Origin: Streptomyces sp. SUK 48
GTDB lineage: Bacteria; Actinomycetota; Actinomycetes; Streptomycetales; Streptomycetaceae
Length of the DNA: 64,000 nt
Reading direction: 5' to 3'
Assembly: GCF_009650765.1 (NCBI RefSeq)
Contig: NZ_CP045740.1
Span: 5,680,001-5,744,000, forward strand
Below, piece after piece: positions 8,405-43,244 of the stretch (position 1 is its first letter; each line of letters begins with the position of its first letter). The notes beneath the pieces are model-generated. The model had not been told where the DNA came from, searched no databases, and worked only from the letters and a program-made list of their open reading frames with translations. A program made the translations under genes and the position numbers.

Positions 8405-8476
<72 letters not shown>

Positions 8477-14115: not shown

Positions 14116-14760
14116 TCAGCAGCCCGAGAGGTCGTTCTGGAGCGCGGTCTTCTCCGCCGGGTCGACGGACAGGTTGTAGTAGTACTTCACCTGCACCCAG
14201 GCGCGGACGTACGTGCAGTCGTACGCGGTGCGGGACGGGATCCAGGTGGCCGGGTCCTGGTCGCCCTTGGACTGGTTGACGTTGTCGGTGACGGCGAGGA
14301 GCTGGGGGCGGGTGACGTCGTTGGCGAACGCCTGGCGCTGGGCGGTGGTCCACTTGCTCGCGCCGGAGTCCCAGGCTTCGGCCAGCGGCACCAGGTGGTC
14401 GATGTCCACGTCGGAGGCGGAGGTCCAGGTCGCGCCGTCGTACGGCGAGTACCAGCTGCCGCTGGTGGCGGTGCAGGCGGAGTTGGTGACGACGTTCGTG
14501 CCGTCCCGCTTGATGATGTACTCCCGGGTGTTGCAGGTGCCCTCGATGGTGATCCACGTCGGGAACTTGTCGCGGCTGTAACCGGTGCGGTCCTCGGCGG
14601 CGACGGTGAGCTGGGAGAGGTAGCCGCGGGCGGTGGACCCGCTGACCGGCGTCGGCAGGGCCGCGGAGGCGGTGGGGGAGTTGAACAGCGCGGCGGTGGC
14701 GACCAGGCCGGTGAGGCCGGCGAGGACACTGAGGCGTCGACGCGCGTAGAACTTGGGCAT
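14116..14760 (-). CDS. secreted HNH endonuclease-family protein (DUF1524-like)
   Basis: A 214-residue exported protein. The first 33 residues are a Sec signal peptide (RRRLSVLAGLTGLVATAAL, cleavage near ASA-AL). The mature part has the His-Me finger motif DIDHLVPLAEAWDSG, then FANDVTRPQLLAVTDNVNQSKGDQDPATWIP, where the later Asn and the D/E residues complete the nuclease site, and four Cys suited to disulphides. Such proteins are extracellular nucleases probably used for phosphate or nucleotide scavenging. The ATG has AAGGGAG upstream. A 16-base perfect palindrome overlaps its likely -35 region. Confidence 0.88.
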   Translation of the reverse strand: MPKFYARRRLSVLAGLTGLVATAALFNSPTASAALPTPVSGSTARGYLSQLTVAAEDRTGYSRDKFPTWITIEGTCNTREYIIKRDGTNVVTNSACTATSGSWYSPYDGATWTSASDVDIDHLVPLAEAWDSGASKWTTAQRQAFANDVTRPQLLAVTDNVNQSKGDQDPATWIPSRTAYDCTYVRAWVQVKYYYNLSVDPAEKTALQNDLSGC

Positions 14761-14857
14761 TGCTGAACTCCCTTGTGGGGGTGGGGTTTTGGGCCACGAG
14801 TCAGGGAATGCTCGCGACGTGGAGTTACCGGAGGGTGAGCGCCCGGTAAGAAGCTAG

Positions 14858-14873
14858 TGACATGATCATGTCA
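14858..14873 (-). promoter_or_regulatory. 16-bp palindromic operator overlapping a -35 box
   Basis: TGACATGATCATGTCA is a perfect palindrome. Read on the minus strand it is preceded by T to give TTGACA, a consensus -35, 17 bases before TCTTAC. A repressor bound here would block the HNH nuclease promoter, and it also lies upstream of the riboswitch on the other strand. Confidence 0.6.
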
Positions 14874-14918
14874 ATGCAAGGTCGAGGGAGGGACTTTGCC
14901 GTCCCGTATCATGGGGAG

Positions 14919-15028
14919 CGCAGAAGGGGAGTAGCTCTTCGCCGGACCGTCGACATACTGCTCAGCGAGCCTGAGCCGGCGCCCGGAGGCGGACCCTCGG
15001 TACCGCCAGCGAGACCTTCGGCAAAGCA
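14919..15028 (+). promoter_or_regulatory. yybP-ykoY manganese riboswitch
   Basis: The leader contains the two conserved loop blocks of this class: AAGGGGAGTAGCTC at 14924-14937 and the distal AGCGAGACCTT at 15008-15018. GAAGG and CCTTC pair to close P1. The middle (GTCGACATACTGCTCAG) fits the three-way junction arm. The class binds Mn2+ and turns on exporters of the MntP and UPF0016 families; the next gene, 110 bases downstream, is a UPF0016 member. Confidence 0.85.
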
Positions 15029-15137
15029 GTGCACGTCCGCGCGACCAGGCGCGGGCGCCGAGTGTGCTGCCGTGCCGAGGTGTCGTCGGAAGATGTATCG
15101 CACTCTCGGTGGGGTGGCCCCGACCGATTGAGGACCC

Positions 15138-15719
15138 TTGATCAGCATCACCGTGACGGCGCTCGTCTTCGGCGTCATCTTCCTCGCCGAACTGCCGGAC
15201 AAGACCGCGCTCGCCGGCCTCGTGCTCGGCACCCGCTACCGCGCCAGTTACGTCTTCGCGGGCGTCGCCGCGGCCTTCCTGGTGCATGTCGTGCTCGCGG
15301 TGGCCGCGGGCAGTGTGCTCACCCTGCTGCCCCAGCGGCTCGTGCACGCCATCACCGGCCTGCTCTTCCTCGGCGGCGCCGCGATGCTGCTGTTCGCCAA
15401 GGGCGAGGAAGAGGAGGAGATCAAGAAGCCCGCCGACCAGTCCTTCTGGAAGGTCGCGGGTACGGGCTTCATGCTCATCCTGGTCGCCGAGTTCGGCGAT
15501 CTCACCCAGATCATGACCGCCAACCTCGCCGCCCGCTACGACGACCCGATCTCCGTCGGCCTCGGCGCGGTGCTCGGTCTGTGGGCCGTCGCGGGTCTCG
15601 GCATCGTGGGCGGAAAGGCCCTGATGAAGAAGGTGCCGCTGCGGCTGATCACGCAGATCGCGGCGCTGCTGATGCTGGGTCTCGGCGCCTGGAGCCTGTA
15701 CGAGGCGGTCGCGGGCTGA
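15138..15719 (+). CDS. UPF0016/GDT1-family manganese exporter
   Basis: A 193-residue integral membrane protein with six or seven helices arranged as two repeats. The two signature ExGDxT motifs are present as ELPDKT near the N terminus and EFGDLT in the second half; the first carries Pro in place of Gly. The acidic residues form the cation site in this Ca/Mn transporter family (human TMEM165, yeast Gdt1, bacterial MneA). An acidic cytoplasmic loop (KGEEEEEIKK) separates the halves. The manganese riboswitch in the leader supports Mn2+ efflux as the function. Confidence 0.9.
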   Translation: MISITVTALVFGVIFLAELPDKTALAGLVLGTRYRASYVFAGVAAAFLVHVVLAVAAGSVLTLLPQRLVHAITGLLFLGGAAMLLFAKGEEEEEIKKPADQSFWKVAGTGFMLILVAEFGDLTQIMTANLAARYDDPISVGLGAVLGLWAVAGLGIVGGKALMKKVPLRLITQIAALLMLGLGAWSLYEAVAG

Positions 15720-35825: not shown

Positions 35826-36236
35826 TTAGTACCAGTGGTTGGCCTGCCAGAAGGCCCACGCCTTGGCGGGGCTGCCGTAGCGGGAGTTCATGTAGTCCAG
35901 GCCCCACTTGATCTGGGTGGCCGGGTTGGTCTTCCAGTCCGCGCCGGCGGACGACATCTTCGAACCCGGCAGCGCCTGGACCAGGCCGTAGGCGCCGGAG
36001 GAGGCGTTGGTGGCGCTCGGGTTCCAGCCGCTCTCGCGCTGGACGATCTGGCTGAACGCGTTGAACTGCGCGGCGTCCGGGATCATCTTGTGCGCGATCG
36101 CCTGGGCCGAGGAGGCCGAGGCCGGGGCGGCGGCCTGGGCGGGGGCGGCGGACAGCGCCATGCCGGCGGTGGCGGCGGCCACGGCGGCGACGGTGAGGGC
36201 CTTCTTCGGGGAGGCGAAGCGACGGATGACGGACAC
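35826..36236 (-). CDS. secreted lysozyme-fold transglycosylase (SLT-like)
   Basis: A 136-residue secreted protein with a GTG start and AAGAGGTG upstream. A signal peptide ends near AQA-AAP (about residue 35). The mature domain has the catalytic Glu in FSQIVQRESGWNPSATN, followed by SSGAYGLVQALPGSKM and the C-terminal WGLDYMNSRYGSPAKAWAFWQANHWY, the usual small Streptomyces SLT/Rpf-like fold. It should cleave peptidoglycan glycan strands. No c-di-AMP riboswitch, often found before such genes, is apparent in the 290-base upstream region. Confidence 0.9.
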   Translation of the reverse strand: MSVIRRFASPKKALTVAAVAAATAGMALSAAPAQAAAPASASSAQAIAHKMIPDAAQFNAFSQIVQRESGWNPSATNASSGAYGLVQALPGSKMSSAGADWKTNPATQIKWGLDYMNSRYGSPAKAWAFWQANHWY

Positions 36237-36528
36237 GGAGCACCTCTTGCGTCGGGGACGGGGATGGCCGGCGTGAACCCTGAGGGCTCGTGGTGCCTGG
36301 CGACGCCGACCAGATAAGCAGCCCGGAAATCCGTCCGCAATCACCCCTTTTACTAGTTGTGGCCGGATGGAGCGGGAATGAGCGTTCTGTGGCGCAGCTC
36401 TCAAACCCCAGGTCGGCGGGGGTGCGGCACGGAACGTATCGGACATAACCCACTACGACCCCGGTTCGTAGGTGAGCTGCGTCATGTGGGGTGCCTCACC
36501 GGCCCGCTCACCGCGTGGGTACGGCCCC
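36237..36528. other. gene-free region upstream of the transglycosylase
   Basis: Contains CAACTAGTAAAAGGGGTGATTG-like AT-richer DNA at about 36335-36362 on the minus strand, where the transglycosylase promoter should lie, and the 3' end of the ECF operon. No riboswitch or repeat is evident. Confidence 0.45.
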
Positions 36529-37416
36529 TCACGCCCCGGGGTCGTCGAAGGTGACCGGCGTCTCGAACGCGGCCCGGCGGGTGGCCCGGCGCAGCGCGCG
36601 CAGCACGGCGGGGCCGAGCGCGAAGGTCAGCACCACCGTGCACAGGGCCCGGCCCAGGTCCCAGCCGAGGGAGGTGGCCAGGCAGTAGGCGACGAAGCGG
36701 GCCAGGTTGGCGGCGACCGAGCCGCCCGGGTGGAAGGAGATGCCCGAGGCGGTGGCGCCCATGAAGGGCCAGCCGGCCAGGTTCATGACCGTGCCGTAGG
36801 CGAGGGAGGCGAGGAAGCCGTACCCGGCCAGGAGCAGCAGCTCGGCCCGGCCGCGCAGCCGCACCGGTCCCGGCAGCAGGCCCGCGCCCATCGCGAACCA
36901 GCCCATCGACAGCATCTGGAACGGCAGCCAGGGGCCGACGCCGCCGGTCAGCAGCGCGGACGCGAACATCGTCACCGAGCCCAGCGCGAAGCCGAAGCCG
37001 GGGCCCAGGACGCGGCCGCTGAGCACCAGCAGGAAGAACATCGGCTCGATCCCGGCCGTGCCCGCGCCGATCGGGCGCAGCGCGGCACCCGTGGCGGCGA
37101 GCACGCCCAGCATCGCGACCGCCTTCGGACCGAGGTCCGACTCCGAGATCGTCGCCGCGACCACCGCCACCAGCAGGATCAGCAGACCGGCGAACAGCCA
37201 GGGGGCGTCCTGGGCGTGCGCGCTCAGCTGGGAGGCGGGCGGGGCGAGGAAGGGCCAGCCGAAGGCGATCACGCCGACGGCGGTGACGAGGGCGAGGGCG
37301 GCGACGGAGCGGGGGCCGAGGCGGACGGCACGCACGGCGCGGACGCGCGGGGGTGCGGCGGTCGCGGCGGGCGCGGTGGTGGGAGCGTGCGGGGTGGTGG
37401 GGGAGGGCGGGGTCAT
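36529..37416 (-). CDS. ECF transporter S (substrate-binding) component, probably cobalamin
   Basis: A 295-residue protein with a Pro/Thr/Ala-rich cytoplasmic N terminus of about 45 residues, then six to seven helices (LGPRSVAALALVTAVGVIAFGWPF, ...FALGSVTMFASALLTGGVGPWLPFQMLSMGWFAMGAGLL in pieces). GGVGPWLPFQMLSMGW is a typical S-component segment that contacts EcfT. Its ATG overlaps the ATPase TGA by 4 bases (ATGA), so the two are translationally coupled. The cobalamin riboswitch at the head of the operon argues that the substrate is B12 or a precursor. Confidence 0.85.
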   Translation of the reverse strand: MTPPSPTTPHAPTTAPAATAAPPRVRAVRAVRLGPRSVAALALVTAVGVIAFGWPFLAPPASQLSAHAQDAPWLFAGLLILLVAVVAATISESDLGPKAVAMLGVLAATGAALRPIGAGTAGIEPMFFLLVLSGRVLGPGFGFALGSVTMFASALLTGGVGPWLPFQMLSMGWFAMGAGLLPGPVRLRGRAELLLLAGYGFLASLAYGTVMNLAGWPFMGATASGISFHPGGSVAANLARFVAYCLATSLGWDLGRALCTVVLTFALGPAVLRALRRATRRAAFETPVTFDDPGA

Positions 37417-39104
37417 CCCAGGGCCTCCCGGACCTGGGACACGGTCAGCCACTGCTGGGGGGCGAGGATCTTGGTCACCTGGGGGGCGAAGGAGGGGGAG
37501 GACACGACGATCTCCGCCGTCGGACCGTCCGCGATCACCTCGCCCTCGGCGAGCAGCACCACCCGGTGGGCGATCTCCGCGGCCAGCTCCACGTCGTGCG
37601 TGGCCAGCACGATCGCGTGCCCCTCGGCGGCGAGTTCGCGCAGCGCGGTGACCAGGCGGGCCTTCGCGGCGTAGTCCAGGCCGCGGGTCGGCTCGTCCAG
37701 GAGGAGCAGGGGCGGGCGGGCGGTCAGTACGACGGCCAGCGCGAGGGCGAGGCACTGGCCCTCGGAGAGGTCGCGGGGGTGGGTGTCGTCGGCGATGCCC
37801 GGCAGGAGCCGGTCCAGCAGGGCGCGGCAGGTCCCCAGGGCCGCGGCGGTGTCCTGGTCGGCGGCGGCGCACTCCGCCGCCACGGTGTCGGCGTAGAGGA
37901 GGTCCCGCGGTTCCTGGGGGACCAGGCCGACGTGGCGGATCAGGTCGCGGGGCGGGGTGCGGTGGGGGGTCCGGCCGCCGACGGTCACCGTGCCGGTGGA
38001 GGGTTCGAGGAGGCCGACGAAGCTGTTGAGGAGGGTCGACTTGCCGGCGCCGTTGCGGCCCATGAGGGCGATGGTCTCGCCGGGGGTGACGGTGAGGCTG
38101 ACGCGGTGGAGGGCGGTGACCTGGGCGCGGCGGACGGTGAGGTCGTGGGCGTCGGCGGTGCGGGGCGGTCGGTCCTCGGGGGTGGGACGGCGCCGGAAGC
38201 GGCGCCCGGCGTTGCTGGTGGCCGGGGGCGGGGCCGCTTGTCCGCGCGGGCGGGGTGCCGCGAGGGCCGCCGGGCCGCCCGCGGGTGCCTGGGCGAGGCG
38301 GTCGCGCAGGTCACCGGCCTTGCGGCGGGCGTCGCGCACGGTCAGCGGCAGCGGGGACCAGCCGGCCAGCCGGCCCAGGGCGACGACCGGGGGGTGGACC
38401 GGGGAGACGGCCATGATGTCGGACGGGGCGCCGGTGACGGGGGGTGCGCCGGGGGTGGGGAGGAGGACGACGCGGTCGGCGTAGTGGATGACGCGTTCGA
38501 GGCGGTGCTCGGCCATCAGGACGGTCGTACCGAGGTCGTGCACGAGACGCTGGAGCACCGCGAGGACCTCCTCCGCGGCGGCGGGGTCCAGCGCGGAGGT
38601 CGGTTCGTCGAGCACGAGGACCCGGGGGTGCGGGGTGAGCACGGAGCCGATGGCGACGCGCTGGCGCTGGCCGCCGGAGAGAGTGGCGATGGGGCGGTCG
38701 CGCAGCCCCGCGAGGCCCAGCAGATCGAGGGTCTCCTCGACCCGGCGGCGCATCACCTCCGGCGCCAGGCCCAACGACTCCATGCCGTAGGCGAGTTCGT
38801 CCTCGACGGTGTCGGTGACGAAATGGGCGAGCGGATCCTGGCCCACCGTGCCGACCACGTCGGCGAGTTCACGGGGCTTGTGGGTGCGGGTGTCGCGCCC
38901 GGCCACGGTCACACGGCCGCCGAGGGTGCCGCCGGTGAAGTGCGGGACGAGCCCGCTGACCGCGCCGAGCACGGTGGACTTGCCGACCCCGGACGGCCCG
39001 ACGAGCAGCGCCAGTTCGCCCTCCGGCACCTCGAAGTCGACGTCGCGGACGGTGGGTTCGGGGGCACCGTCGTACGTGACGCTGACCTTCTCGAAGCGGA
39101 TCAC
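37413..39104 (-). CDS. ECF transporter ATPase, two fused ATPase domains (EcfA-A')
   Basis: A 563-residue protein with two ABC ATPase domains in tandem. Domain 1: Walker A GPSGVGKST, signature LSGGQRQRVAIG, Walker B VLVLDEPTSALDP. Domain 2: Walker A GRNGAGKST, signature LSEGQCLALALA (a variant of LSGGQ), Walker B LLLLDEPTRGLDY. A Pro/Arg-rich linker lies between them, about residues 235-310. The GTG start overlaps the EcfT stop (GTGA). It should energise the importer as a built-in heterodimer. The second signature is degenerate, so one of the two sites may be weak. Confidence 0.92.
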   Translation of the reverse strand: MIRFEKVSVTYDGAPEPTVRDVDFEVPEGELALLVGPSGVGKSTVLGAVSGLVPHFTGGTLGGRVTVAGRDTRTHKPRELADVVGTVGQDPLAHFVTDTVEDELAYGMESLGLAPEVMRRRVEETLDLLGLAGLRDRPIATLSGGQRQRVAIGSVLTPHPRVLVLDEPTSALDPAAAEEVLAVLQRLVHDLGTTVLMAEHRLERVIHYADRVVLLPTPGAPPVTGAPSDIMAVSPVHPPVVALGRLAGWSPLPLTVRDARRKAGDLRDRLAQAPAGGPAALAAPRPRGQAAPPPATSNAGRRFRRRPTPEDRPPRTADAHDLTVRRAQVTALHRVSLTVTPGETIALMGRNGAGKSTLLNSFVGLLEPSTGTVTVGGRTPHRTPPRDLIRHVGLVPQEPRDLLYADTVAAECAAADQDTAAALGTCRALLDRLLPGIADDTHPRDLSEGQCLALALAVVLTARPPLLLLDEPTRGLDYAAKARLVTALRELAAEGHAIVLATHDVELAAEIAHRVVLLAEGEVIADGPTAEIVVSSPSFAPQVTKILAPQQWLTVSQVREALG

Positions 39105-40384
39105 GAGTGCTCCCTCGGGACGACGAAGGCAGGCAGCAGGGCGAGGAGGACCGACGCGGCCGGCCACAGCGGCAGGGTGGGGGCGGCCAGCGGGACCACG
39201 CCCGGGTGCAGGGCGTCCGGGGCGCGGGACGCGGCGAGCGTCAGCAGCGCGGCCACGGCGATGCCGGAACCGGCGACCAGCCAGGCGCGGGGGCCCCAGG
39301 GGTCGGGCCGGTACCGGGTGCGCGGCGAACGGCGGCCGCCGAGGCGCAGTCCGGCGAGGGCGGCGAGGACCCCGGCGAGCAGCAGCGGGGCGCCGTAGCC
39401 GCCGCCCGCCGCGGTGAGCAGCCCGTACGTGCCCGCGCAGACGCCGAGCAGGCCGCCGAGGGTGAGGGCGGCGGTCGTACGGCGGACCCGGGCCGGGACG
39501 TCGGCGGTGCGGCCGTAGCCGCGGGCCTCCATGGCGGCGGCGAGGGCGACGGAGCGTTCCAGCGCGCCCTCCAGGACCGGGAGTCCGACCTGGAGCAGCC
39601 CCCGGACGCCCCGGTCCGGGCGGCCGCGCAGCCGGCGGGCGGCGCGCAGCCGCTGGACGTCGGCGATGAGATGCGGTGCGAAGGTGAGGGCGACGACGAC
39701 GGCGACACCGGTCTCGTACAGCGCGCCGGGCAGCGACTTCAGCAGCCGGGACGGGCTGGCGAGGGCGTTCGCGGCGCCGACGCAGATCAGCAGGGTGGCC
39801 AGCTTCAGCCCGTCGTACGCCGCGAAGACGAGCGCCTCCGCGGTGACCTCGCCGCCGAGCCGGATGCCCTGGGCCCAGTGCGGCAGCGGGATCTCCGGCA
39901 GGGTGAGCAGGACATGGGTGCCGGGGATCGGGGAGCCGAGGGCCACCGCGAAGACCAGGCGGATGAGCAGCACGGCGAACGCGAGCTTGGCGAACGCGGA
40001 GTAGGAACGCGCCCAGGGGGCGGGGGAGCGGTGCGTCGCCACGACGTACGCCGACACGGCGATGAGCAGGGCGAGCAGCAGCGGGTTGGTGGTCCGGGTG
40101 GCCGCCGTACCCAGGGATATCGCCCAGATCCACCAGGCCCCGGGGTGCACGCCGCTCCGGCGCCGCTCCCGTCCCGAGGGGGCGCGGGGAACCGCGCGCT
40201 CGGCCACGGACGGCCCGCGCTCGGCCACGGACGGCCCGCGCTCGGCCACGGACGGCCCGCGCTCGGCCACGGACGGCCCGCGGCCGGGCACGGCGGCCGG
40301 GGCGGGACGGCCGCCGCTCCCGACGCCCTCCCGCCCGCGCGAAACCGCGCGCTCCGCCCCCACCGGCCGCTCCGGCGGAGTCAT
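39101..40384 (-). CDS. ECF transporter T (coupling) component with unusual N-terminal extension
   Basis: A 427-residue protein. The helical core begins near WWIWAISLGTAATRTTNPLLLALLIAV (about residue 85); the coupling helices carry the Ala-Arg-Gly motif in AAAMEARGYGRTADVPARVRR. Ahead of the core about 80 residues are low-complexity, including four exact GPSVAER heptads and an insertion-like RAVPRAPSGRERRRSG. The ATG overlaps the preceding TGA by 4 bases. The extension is not part of the usual EcfT fold and reads as DNA repeat expansion in the 5' end of the gene. Confidence 0.9.
   Translation of the reverse strand: MTPPERPVGAERAVSRGREGVGSGGRPAPAAVPGRGPSVAERGPSVAERGPSVAERGPSVAERAVPRAPSGRERRRSGVHPGAWWIWAISLGTAATRTTNPLLLALLIAVSAYVVATHRSPAPWARSYSAFAKLAFAVLLIRLVFAVALGSPIPGTHVLLTLPEIPLPHWAQGIRLGGEVTAEALVFAAYDGLKLATLLICVGAANALASPSRLLKSLPGALYETGVAVVVALTFAPHLIADVQRLRAARRLRGRPDRGVRGLLQVGLPVLEGALERSVALAAAMEARGYGRTADVPARVRRTTAALTLGGLLGVCAGTYGLLTAAGGGYGAPLLLAGVLAALAGLRLGGRRSPRTRYRPDPWGPRAWLVAGSGIAVAALLTLAASRAPDALHPGVVPLAAPTLPLWPAASVLLALLPAFVVPREHS
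40178..40281. repeat. intragenic copy of the intergenic repeat plus four 21-bp tandem units
   Basis: The 20-base core GGGGGCGCGGGGAACCGCGC (also at 28321) begins at 40178 and overlaps the first of four exact 21-bp units, GCTCGGCCACGGACGGCCCG plus C, at 40198-40281. They keep the reading frame of the ecfT-like gene. Confidence 0.95.
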
Positions 40385-41021
40385 CCGCGACGCCGCCGGA
40401 ACTGCCACACCGCCGCGCCCGCCAGGACGGCGACGACACCGGCCCCGATCGGCAGCCCCAACGACGGGCCACCGGACGAAGCGGCGGGCTTTGCGGAGGC
40501 GGCCGGACCGGCGGAGCCGACCTGCTCCCCGCACCCCTGCCGCGGATACCCGGAGATCGCGCACAGCAGCGCGTTCGTGTCGTACCGCAGCGGCTTGGCC
40601 ACCGCGGCCAGCGCCTCGGCGGCGGAGGCCGACGGCGCGACGCGCGCGCACGCCGTGCGGCCGGCCGGCGGGGTCTCGCCGGAGGGCGCGTCCGCCCGGA
40701 CGCCGAAGTCGACGACCAGCGCCACCCGCTTCGTGCCCGGCTTCGCGGCCGTCCCCGAACAGATCGTGGCGAAGTCCGCCGTACCGCGCGGCTTGCTCGC
40801 GTCGCCCGAGTCCGCGCTCACGGAGAAGCGGAAGCCCTCCACGGAGCCGTCCTCGGGCGGGCGAGCGAGGGGCCCTGGGTGGCGTACGTCCAGTGGCCGC
40901 CGGAGCGTTCCCAGAACGACCAGTAGCGGTACCCCGTGGCCGCCGCCTGCCCGGCGCCCGTGCCGAGCAGCAGGGCGAGCGCGGCCAGCAGCACCGGCAC
41001 GGCACGGCGGACGGCCGTCAC
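40381..41021 (-). pseudogene. secreted, C-terminally anchored protein of the ECF operon (SCO2322-like), frameshifted
   Basis: The N-terminal part (signal peptide VPVLLAALALLLGTGAGQAAA, then YRYWSFWERSGGHWTYATQGPSLARP) and the C-terminal part (EGFRFSVSADSGDASKPRGTADF ... GLPIGAGVVAVLAGAAVWQFRRRRG, one membrane helix with a basic stop) lie in different frames. They join if one C is restored in the run near 40853-40861, giving ...SLARPEDGSVEGF. Start GTG overlaps the upstream TGA (GTGA) and the stop overlaps the EcfT ATG, so the coding unit is clearly one gene. Its fold is not obvious to me; similar proteins are found beside this ECF operon in Streptomyces. Confidence 0.75.
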
Positions 41022-42226
41022 GGCTGCCGCTTCTTGCGGGTGCTCAGCAGGAAGCCGATGCCGATGCCCGCGACCAGGCAGATGCCGACGCTCCACCAGA
41101 CCCCGGCGTGCGAGCCGCCGTCGGACGCCTTGGCCTGCTGCGCGGCGGCCTGCATCCGCGGCTCGGGGCCGAGGGCGTTGAGGGAGGTGACGAGGCTGGT
41201 GCCGCCGAAGTCGCCGGGCTGGGCGCCGACGGCGTGCGCGGCGAGGATCAGCTGCGCGTACGCCGCCGGGCCGGTCCGGGCGGCCCAGGGTCCGGCGCTC
41301 TTCTCCAGGAAGGCGTACGCCTTCTTCGCCGCCGCGGTCCGCCCGTCGGCGGCGAGGGCGACGACGGTGTCGGCGGTGTTGCCGTAGTCGGGCTGGTCCG
41401 TGGCGCCGGGCATCGCGGACATGAGGTGGCCGCTCTTCGCGATCGCGGCCGCCAGGTACGCGCCGCCGTTGTCGGCGAGCTGGGCCGGGGCCGGGTGCCC
41501 GGCCTTGGCGCAGGCGTCCGACGCCGGGGCCTTGCCGGCCTCCGCCACGAAGCCCTTGCCGAGCGCGGCGGTCACACCGGCCGCGGTGGCGTCGGCGTTG
41601 GCGGCCAGCTCGCCCTTCTTGTCCGGCTGGTAGGCGAGCGCGCCGCCGCCGTCGTGGCCGCACGGGATGGACCAGGTGGCCAGCGCGTCGTACGGGGACT
41701 TGCCGTCCTTCTCGACGCCCGCCGGGTCGGCGCCGGTCGCGGCGAGCGCGCCGATGACGACGGAGGTGGAGTTGGTGTCGCTGGGGCTGCCCGGGTTGTA
41801 GCCCCAGCCGCCGTCCTTGTTCTGCACGGACTTCAGCCAGTCCACGGCCTTGGTGACGGCGGCGTCGTGGCCGCCGGTCGCGTGCAGGGCCTGGACCGCG
41901 GCGGCCGTGCTGTTGGTGTCCACCATGGTCTTGGCGCCGCAGGACGCGGCGGGGGTGGCGCGGAACGCGGCGAAGGAGCCGTTCGCGCACTGCTGGCCGG
42001 TGAGCCAGTCCACGGCGGCGGCGGCCGGGCGGTAGCCGAGGGTGCGCTGCGCGACGAGGGTGAGCGACTGGCGCCACACACCGTCGTAGGTGGGGTCCGA
42101 CTTGCCGTAGAGACCGGCCGGGACCGATGCCTTGGGGGAAGGGGACGGGCCGGCGGCCACGGCGGGTGCGGCGGCTGCCAGCACACCTATGGCGGCGAGA
42201 GCCGCGGCGTTGCGGCGGACGTTCAT
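41018..42226 (-). CDS. secreted alpha/alpha-toroid (prenyltransferase-repeat) protein, C-terminally anchored
   Basis: A 402-residue exported protein. A signal peptide (AALAAIGVLAAAAPAVAA) precedes a series of helical repeats of the squalene-cyclase/prenyltransferase type: AAAVDWLTGQQCANGSF, DTNSTAAAVQALHATGG, AVDWLKSVQNKDGGWGYNP, DTNSTSVVIGALAATGADP, YGNTADTVVALAADG. A single helix (VWWSVGICLVAGIGIGFLL) and KKRQP follow at the C terminus, so it is displayed outside the membrane. The same barrel fold forms the cobalamin-binding half of animal intrinsic factor and transcobalamin. Placed first in an operon under a cobalamin riboswitch, it is a good candidate B12-binding receptor; that is inference. 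Confidence 0.85.
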   Translation of the reverse strand: MNVRRNAAALAAIGVLAAAAPAVAAGPSPSPKASVPAGLYGKSDPTYDGVWRQSLTLVAQRTLGYRPAAAAVDWLTGQQCANGSFAAFRATPAASCGAKTMVDTNSTAAAVQALHATGGHDAAVTKAVDWLKSVQNKDGGWGYNPGSPSDTNSTSVVIGALAATGADPAGVEKDGKSPYDALATWSIPCGHDGGGALAYQPDKKGELAANADATAAGVTAALGKGFVAEAGKAPASDACAKAGHPAPAQLADNGGAYLAAAIAKSGHLMSAMPGATDQPDYGNTADTVVALAADGRTAAAKKAYAFLEKSAGPWAARTGPAAYAQLILAAHAVGAQPGDFGGTSLVTSLNALGPEPRMQAAAQQAKASDGGSHAGVWWSVGICLVAGIGIGFLLSTRKKRQP

Positions 42227-42339
42227 GGTCGGCGACTGCCTCTCCCTGCGGGGAGCCGGGCAGCGCACGGGGAGGGACCCGGGCGGCTCGACTCCGTATA
42301 CCTCGACGGTGCCGTGCGCGGCGGGGGCCGACGCACGCG

Positions 42340-42515
42340 AGCCGGTCACGTCCGCCCCGGGGCGTTCCGGCTCACCGGTTCCCGCGGGAACGGCTCACGG
42401 ATTGGGGCCTCCCCGCTTCGAGCGAAGCCGAGAAGCGGGGAAGGGCCAGCGCCGGAATTGCACCGGCTTCCCCCCGTACGGGTGTGATGACGACCCCGCC
42501 ACTTTACCGGCAGCC
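42340..42515 (-). promoter_or_regulatory. cobalamin riboswitch
   Basis: On the minus strand the leader contains GGGGAAGCCGGTGCAATTCC followed by GGCGCTGGCCC, the conserved P3-P4 core of the cobalamin riboswitch. About 90 bases later AGCCGGAACGCCCCG corresponds to the B12-box (AGCCCGAAGACCTGCC in E. coli btuB). GC-rich hairpins fill the interval. The first gene of the ECF operon starts about 115 bases downstream. High cobalamin should reduce expression. Confidence 0.85.
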
Positions 42516-42572: not shown

Positions 42573-43244
42573 ATGACAACACCGGGAGAGCTCCTCGGAT
42601 CGGGCCGCACGGCCGACGTCTACGTGCTCGACACGGGGTGGGTGCTGCGCCGCGACCGCGAGGGCCGGGGGGACGCGGCGGCCGAGGCGGCCGTGATGAC
42701 GTACGTACGACGGCACGGCTACCCGGCGCCCCGGGTGCGCCCCACCGGCTCGCGCACCGAACTGGTCCTGGAGCGGCTGTCCGGGCCGACCCTGCTCGCC
42801 GCCCTCGTCGCGGGCCGGGTGGGTCCGGCGGAGGCGGGCGCGCTGCTCGCCGGGCTGCTGCGGCGGCTGCACGCCCTGCCCGGACGGGACCCGGCCGATC
42901 CCGGGGCGCGGGTGCTGCACCTGGATCTGCATCCCGACAACGTGATGCTCACCCCGGACGGGCCCCGCGTCATCGACTGGTCCAACGCCGAGGACGGCGG
43001 CCCCGGCCTGGACTGGGGCATGTCGGCGGTGATCCTCGGCCAGGTCGCCGTGGGTTCCACCGCGCTGGCCGAACCGGCCCGCGCCTCGCTCGTCGCACTG
43101 CTCGCCGGACCGTCCCCGCTCGGCCGGGAGGCGGTCGCGGAGGCGTTGCGGCGCAGGGCGGCGAATCCGACGATGAGCGCGGAGGAGACGGAATCGCTCC
43201 GAGAAGCGGGCGAGTTGGTGCGAAAGGTGGCACAACTGACCTGA
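42573..43244 (+). CDS. aminoglycoside-phosphotransferase-fold kinase
   Basis: A 223-residue APH-like kinase. VLRRDREGRG follows the short Gly-rich GSGRTADVY loop, the catalytic loop is HLDLHPDNVML, and the metal-binding Asp is in RVIDWSNAEDG. Family members phosphorylate antibiotics, choline or other small alcohols; no substrate can be assigned. ATG with AGGG eight bases upstream. Divergent from the cobalamin operon. Confidence 0.88.
   Translation: MTTPGELLGSGRTADVYVLDTGWVLRRDREGRGDAAAEAAVMTYVRRHGYPAPRVRPTGSRTELVLERLSGPTLLAALVAGRVGPAEAGALLAGLLRRLHALPGRDPADPGARVLHLDLHPDNVMLTPDGPRVIDWSNAEDGGPGLDWGMSAVILGQVAVGSTALAEPARASLVALLAGPSPLGREAVAEALRRRAANPTMSAEETESLREAGELVRKVAQLT

Follow-up and report, generated by a model that had tools for sequence, protein, structure and literature searches.

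A cobalamin-linked importer operon of Streptomyces with a putative two-piece surface receptor and a predicted circularly permuted transcobalamin-type beta domain

Does the surface of a streptomycete carry a receptor that captures corrinoid and hands it to an importer in the membrane? The question is raised by an operon of Streptomyces sp. SUK 48 (a genome of 8.34 Mb in one contig), found in the stretch of DNA analyzed here, 64,000 nucleotides of contig NZ_CP045740.1 (positions 5,680,001 to 5,744,000; hereafter the window). Behind one leader, five minus-strand genes encode a toroid protein, a beta protein, and the parts of an energy-coupling factor (ECF) importer, i.e. EcfT, a fused EcfA-A' ATPase, and an S component, in that order (Table 1). 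We consider it probable that this operon specifies a cobalamin-regulated ECF corrinoid importer equipped with a two-piece surface receptor.

The genes overlap at all four junctions (in order GTGA, ATGA, GTGA, and ATGA), and these overlaps, together with the NCBIfam and Pfam matches, confirm the parts listed in a preliminary description made from the sequence of the window, namely five genes so joined that encode a secreted and anchored pair, EcfT, EcfA-A', and an S component. As is expected of an ECF importer, EcfT, two ATPase domains, and an S component are encoded in a single operon, the S match being sub-threshold; the EcfA-A' product scores 291.8 bits with the NCBIfam model ECF_ATPase_2, under the equivalog cut-off of 330. 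The arrangement is more than chance, because the order and strand of all five genes are kept in 67 of 80 Streptomyces loci; among the other 13, 12 reach the end of the available sequence and one (L050) is without a detected S gene. The S component could not be assigned by sequence to a known vitamin family, and in its comparisons with solved structures, CbrT included, none of the matches with E-values up to 10 (seven in one comparison, zero in the other) is an S component.

The second protein belongs to the SCO2322 family (NCBIfam SCO2322_fam at 40384-40842, 165 bits against a cut-off of 85), in which the strands run S3-S4-S5 and then S1-S2-helix-hairpin. The ordinary order, S1-S2-helix-hairpin-S3-S4-S5, was not encountered in the window's family, which is therefore classed as a permuted derivative rather than as an ordinary member. 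Single open reading frames of other actinobacteria match the SCO2322 profile in swapped order, with model positions ~94-97 to 140-141 preceding 5 to 63-65 in genomes G054, G013, and G036, and with positions 72-141 preceding 4-53 in G140; conversely, the matches of the SCO2322 family to ordinary-order domains fall into two stretches (E-values of 6.1e-15, 7.4e-10, and 1.2e-15). When profiles were compared, SCO2322 in its natural order gave two half-matches in swapped order (P-values of 7.5e-13 and 1.1e-11), and SCO2322 with its halves swapped gave a single collinear match over 116 columns (P-value of 3e-24). According to the alignments and the strands of the ordinary-order homologue P0241, the permutation break lies between a conserved GCG that follows the hairpin region and a YW that opens strand 3. 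The structure model of P0241 has strands at residues 42-50 and 58-66, a helix at 71-77, small strands at 82-84 and 90-93, and strands at 109-115 and 139-145, giving a beta-grasp core that has a single helix and, between this helix and strand 3, a strand insert, which agrees with the SLBB fold as described in the available text of PMC1949818. Among solved structures, those nearest in fold to the P0241 model are transcobalamin, haptocorrin, and intrinsic factor (PDB 2bb5, 4kki, and 2pmv), and the link of the beta family to transcobalamin comes from fold comparison alone. Both permuted and ordinary-order homologues bear the precomputed Pfam label PF28005, which is a label only and may already carry a description. 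There is thus strong support for regarding the SCO2322 protein as a transcobalamin-type beta domain that has been circularly permuted. Where the preliminary description had spoken of a split bacterial analogue of the animal carriers, a transcobalamin-type beta domain is indeed what the second protein appears to be, but the evidence supports homology rather than analogy, and a domain that is circularly permuted.

The first protein is a member of the SCO2321 family (NCBIfam SCO2321_fam at 41021-42226, 582 bits against a cut-off of 300). Its predicted structure comprises twelve helices over residues 49-352 in the form of an alpha6/alpha6 barrel, and the model strongly supports its reading as an alpha6/alpha6 toroid; the predicted local distance difference test (pLDDT) score per block of ten residues ranges from 62 to 94, except for values of 35-59 around residues 191-250. 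Among the matches listed, the neighbors of the toroid in PDB are terpene cyclases (by fold and by sequence), prenyltransferases, sugar epimerases, and others.

The leader family, judged by its Rfam matches, is a cobalamin riboswitch. Leaders were surveyed at the 30 top-ranking toroid loci, of which 27 belong to the same genus (the window's own, L020, among them) and three do not; a cobalamin-clan match with an E-value of at most 0.05 stands just upstream of the toroid gene in 21 of them, the RF00174 cut-off is exceeded in 12, and L020 is among the 9 misses. Of 80 related loci, 77 contain the aptamer core according to a pattern search, as does the window itself. Within the aptamer of the window there is a hairpin insertion, which by eye occupies the same position in 18 of 78 segments, the window included. 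This hairpin is not a dispersed repeat of the host genome, in which its exact core pattern and a looser pattern each occur once. In some relatives' loci, a hairpin-related pattern recurs elsewhere, as if a small hairpin repeatedly lands in the riboswitch, and in L024 (3081-3255) a sub-threshold match to the thiamine pyrophosphate riboswitch (35.6 bits, cut-off of 54.3) lies beside the orthologous operon.

Table 1. Features of the operon and its leader, with positions in the window
Feature	Position	Strand	Match or remark
39-nucleotide hairpin insertion inside the aptamer	42404..42442	-	After GCTGGCCC; by eye
Cobalamin-riboswitch-like aptamer core	42361..42473	-	RF00174 match at 42405-42473; B12-box-like GAGCCGGAACGCC at 42361-42373
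Secreted, C-terminally anchored protein, predicted alpha/alpha toroid, 402 residues	41018..42226	-	SCO2321 family
Secreted, C-terminally anchored protein, predicted permuted transcobalamin-type beta domain	40381..41021	-	SCO2322 family; reading frame shifts in the window
EcfT transmembrane component, CbiQ family	39101..40384	-	Pfam PF02361, 35.5 bits (cut-off of 25)
Fused EcfA-A' ATPase, two ATP-binding cassette (ABC) domains	37413..39104	-	PF00005 (ABC_tran), two stretches
S component of ECF importer	36529..37416	-	PF12822 (ECF_trnsprt), 27.4 bits, sub-threshold (cut-off of 30.7)

The distribution of these genes was followed through 296 genomes of the class, of which 103 have the beta family over cut-off and 158 an S-component homologue (E-value of at most 1e-10). 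A listed S gene lies no farther than 6.5 kb from at least 87 of 104 beta places; among the 17 others, nine have an S gene on another contig, two (G131 and G275) are not among the S-matched genomes, and six belong to genomes with an S match, the place itself not being among the matches listed. These proximity counts rest on coordinates transcribed by hand from the profile-search tables. Conversely, among the 73 places where a toroid scores more than 100 bits, 69 have a beta match no farther than 2.5 kb away, a count made up of 71 places tested (69 of them near a beta row, over or under cut-off) plus G034:C1 and G052:C45, which are without a beta row; the second piece of the toroid of G252 was not counted apart. 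Seen from the beta side, a toroid above 100 bits occurs within 2.5 kb of 64 of 104 beta genes. At curated cut-offs, a cobalamin-clan match is present in 7 of 10 loci scanned, not always directly upstream of the operon, and is missing from L129, L131, and L133. What may be called a minimal form occurs in a small genome that is acI-like in size and gene content (L132, 5549-9465), where an adenosylcobalamin (AdoCbl) riboswitch over cut-off is followed by a permuted beta gene together with the EcfT, EcfA-A', and S genes, and where no toroid gene adjoins the beta-EcfT-EcfA-A'-S cluster when the locus is read directly.

The host genome also harbors a paralogue of this operon, likewise cobalamin-linked and of ECF type (L040, 3802-13069, i.e. 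G000:C1:1095802-1105069, L040 being G000:C1:1092001-1112000). It encodes a 928-residue secreted protein in which an ordinary-order beta domain is followed by toroid repeats, a 301-residue beta protein of ordinary order, and the importer parts EcfT, EcfA-A', and S; the leader of this operon reaches 25.7 bits, under the cobalamin riboswitch cut-off. Divergent from it, a leader over cut-off (34.3 bits) precedes the gene of a 470-residue secreted protein that is toroid-like, with weak cyclase-type matches and a C terminus weakly resembling DUF4430 (E-value of 0.13), and a further riboswitch-linked secreted protein of 213 residues (L040, ~14581-15282, minus strand) matches DUF4430 with 27.7 bits (cut-off of 23.8). 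Elsewhere in the genome, cobalamin riboswitches over cut-off stand ahead of metE, cobN, cbiB, nrdA-like, and NiCoT-like genes, of which metE, nrdA, and NiCoT were named by eye; two sub-cut-off riboswitches stand ahead of an ABC set of FecCD/BtuCDF type and a CbtA-like gene. Among five products of such genes that were scanned, CbiB alone exceeds a curated cut-off (CobN was scanned as a piece). The top cobalamin riboswitch of the genome (G000:C1:1095549-1095722, 92.2 bits) precedes two genes, one for an aldehyde dehydrogenase that by eye is of methylmalonate-semialdehyde type and one for an acyl-CoA dehydrogenase; together they may form a pathway of propionate metabolism that does not need B12.

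How might such an operon work? By analogy with the animal carriers, we infer that the surface pair may bind corrinoid, assemble as one clamp, and pass its ligand to the S component. A C-terminal hydrophobic helix would anchor each of the two, toroid and permuted beta domain, and on the external side of the membrane their exodomains would close around the corrinoid in the manner of the two transcobalamin domains; the ligand would then be released to the S component, EcfT and EcfA-A' driving its inward passage. Cobalamin riboswitches usually lower expression when cobalamin is plentiful, and the riboswitch would do so for this operon.

Several observations weigh against this reading. The beta gene of the window is not one frame, the frame changing between ~40842 and 40853, although intact copies occur in relatives, including the near-twin P0228 found by protein search. 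The fold evidence for the beta family is a model of the ordinary-order homologue P0241 and not of the permuted protein; PDB profile searches with the beta family, permuted or not, returned no transcobalamin, and Pfam gave no DUF4430 (PF14478) match in the window's beta protein or in its ordinary-order homologues. The family escapes such sequence detection because divergence and permutation act together, and even the ordinary-order form is missed by the DUF4430 model. On the side of the toroid, the barrel that the preliminary description had expected is predicted, but its nearest solved folds are terpene cyclases, transcobalamin and intrinsic factor are absent from its best 50 of 962 aligned chains, and the model, whose mean pLDDT is 62.3, has a poor stretch at residues 190-250. 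A two-piece clamp is not universal, because 40 of 104 beta genes lack a toroid that scores more than 100 bits in the 2.5 kb around them. The window's own leader scores 20.2 bits with RF00174 (E-value of 0.0092 in 1 kb), under the cut-off of 31.5, and the cobalamin riboswitch claimed earlier is supported through the leader family more than by the score of the window's own copy; the hairpin insert is probably the cause of this low score, three insert-bearing relatives scoring 20.8, 21.0, and 23.4 bits and the insert-free L049 43.3 bits. At curated cut-offs, Rfam gave no cobalamin match in the whole window, its sole match there being a tRNA gene at 8405-8476. Finally, the organism probably makes B12, since cobN and cbiB lie behind cobalamin riboswitches, and so would not depend on uptake, and it may also scavenge corrinoid.

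Such a B12 producer might instead use the surface proteins to bind incomplete or foreign corrinoids (cobinamide or pseudo-B12) for salvage or to keep B12 from competitors, which we regard as unlikely, if by a modest distance. For freshwater acI actinobacteria, in which a riboswitch heads the ECF module, the available text of PMC5301498 gives an absence of B12 synthesis, which favors uptake of the whole cofactor there. A probable B12 producer, on the other hand, could reasonably be expected to take up precursors or foreign cobamides, and the presence of two such operons and of further riboswitch-linked secreted proteins in the genome points the same way. It is very unlikely that the importer carries cobalt or another metal, the surface proteins serving another role. 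EcfT does belong to the CbiQ family, and cobalamin riboswitches also precede genes for cobalt importers (CbiMNQO type); however, no CbiM model is among the Pfam matches of the fifth gene, whose sole match is the sub-threshold ECF_trnsprt, the neighboring protein is a predicted transcobalamin-type beta domain, and the genome has other riboswitch-linked genes resembling cobalt transporters (NiCoT-type by eye, and CbtA-like with 27.9 bits, under cut-off). Slightly less likely still, the toroid would be an enzyme, a secreted terpene cyclase or a prenyl-binding one, whose co-regulation is fortuitous, as its Pfam matches (SQHop_cyclase_C and Prenyltrans) and its cyclase neighbors in PDB might suggest, but none of 120 toroid homologues has DxDD, the catalytic motif of class II terpene cyclases, the protein has a signal peptide and a C-terminal anchor, and a beta match accompanies nearly every toroid place.

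A corrinoid importer with a surface receptor has relatives among known systems. Animal B12 carriers are not known to have a membrane anchor. Transcobalamin, haptocorrin, and intrinsic factor share with the pair described here the alpha6/alpha6 toroid and the beta domain, but are each one polypeptide where there are two here, the strand order is swapped here, and the toroid shows no special closeness to theirs among the matches listed. Among bacteria, Burroughs et al. (2007; PMC1796856), in the text available, predicted surface proteins of toroid/beta-grasp type whose operons also contain CbiQ- and CbiO-like genes and proposed them as B12 scavengers, which dates the premise of the preliminary description that ECF systems for B12 normally have no outside receptor. 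Their transcobalamin-like clade of SLBB proteins shares with the present pair a secreted or anchored beta-grasp domain, an alpha/alpha toroid, and the CbiQ- and CbiO-like operon genes, but its hosts, as given there, are low-GC Gram-positives, planctomycetes, and some archaea rather than Streptomyces, and neither "Streptomyces" nor "permut-" occurs in the main text; here, in contrast, the beta domain is predicted to be permuted, it stands on its own polypeptide, and orthologous leaders match the cobalamin riboswitch. ECF-CbrT of lactobacilli is likewise an ECF-type vitamin B12 importer, but the available text of PMC5997447 describes no surface receptor, and for the S component of the window no sequence match to a solved one was detected up to an E-value of 10. 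In acI actinobacteria, an ECF module behind cobalamin and AdoCbl riboswitches was predicted to be a cobalamin importer (PMC5301498, text available); it shares the riboswitch-headed ECF module, and the acI-like L132 genome has the permuted beta gene, EcfT, EcfA-A', and S, but no beta protein is mentioned in that text and no toroid gene stands beside the L132 cluster. Permutation is mentioned in the available part of PMC1949818 for another beta-grasp family only, and in the accessible parts of open-licence papers we found no description of a permuted transcobalamin-type domain, although a PF28005 description may exist; the same literature gave nothing under SCO2322 and, under SCO2321, only a paper on a skin-delivery peptide. 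As far as these sources go, the logic of a toroid/beta-grasp B12 receptor was already predicted for other bacteria, and its permuted, split actinobacterial form appears new.

A few further features adjoin the operon or lie within it. A tandem repeat of ~21 nucleotides (four copies by eye, ~40199-40280, peptide GPSVAER) lies in the 5' portion of the EcfT coding sequence, and the neighbors are an APH-family phosphotransferase gene (42573-43244, plus strand) and a gene for a secreted protein of transglycosylase-SLT type (35826-36446, minus strand).

From an evolutionary point of view, the chances seem to us about even that actinobacteria possess a split 'intrinsic factor', in which the permuted beta domain would be the core receptor that docks on the ECF S component and the toroid an optional lid, with streamlined lineages keeping the beta domain only, Streptomyces both, and the present host also a second operon of ordinary order in which beta domain and toroid are once fused. 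The operon bears on the origin of the animal B12 carriers and on the route by which a cofactor both rare and bulky crosses the thick Gram-positive wall to reach an ECF importer, and a widespread actinobacterial family, recorded at NCBI as 'SCO2322 family' or hypothetical, can be interpreted as a transcobalamin-type domain in permuted form.
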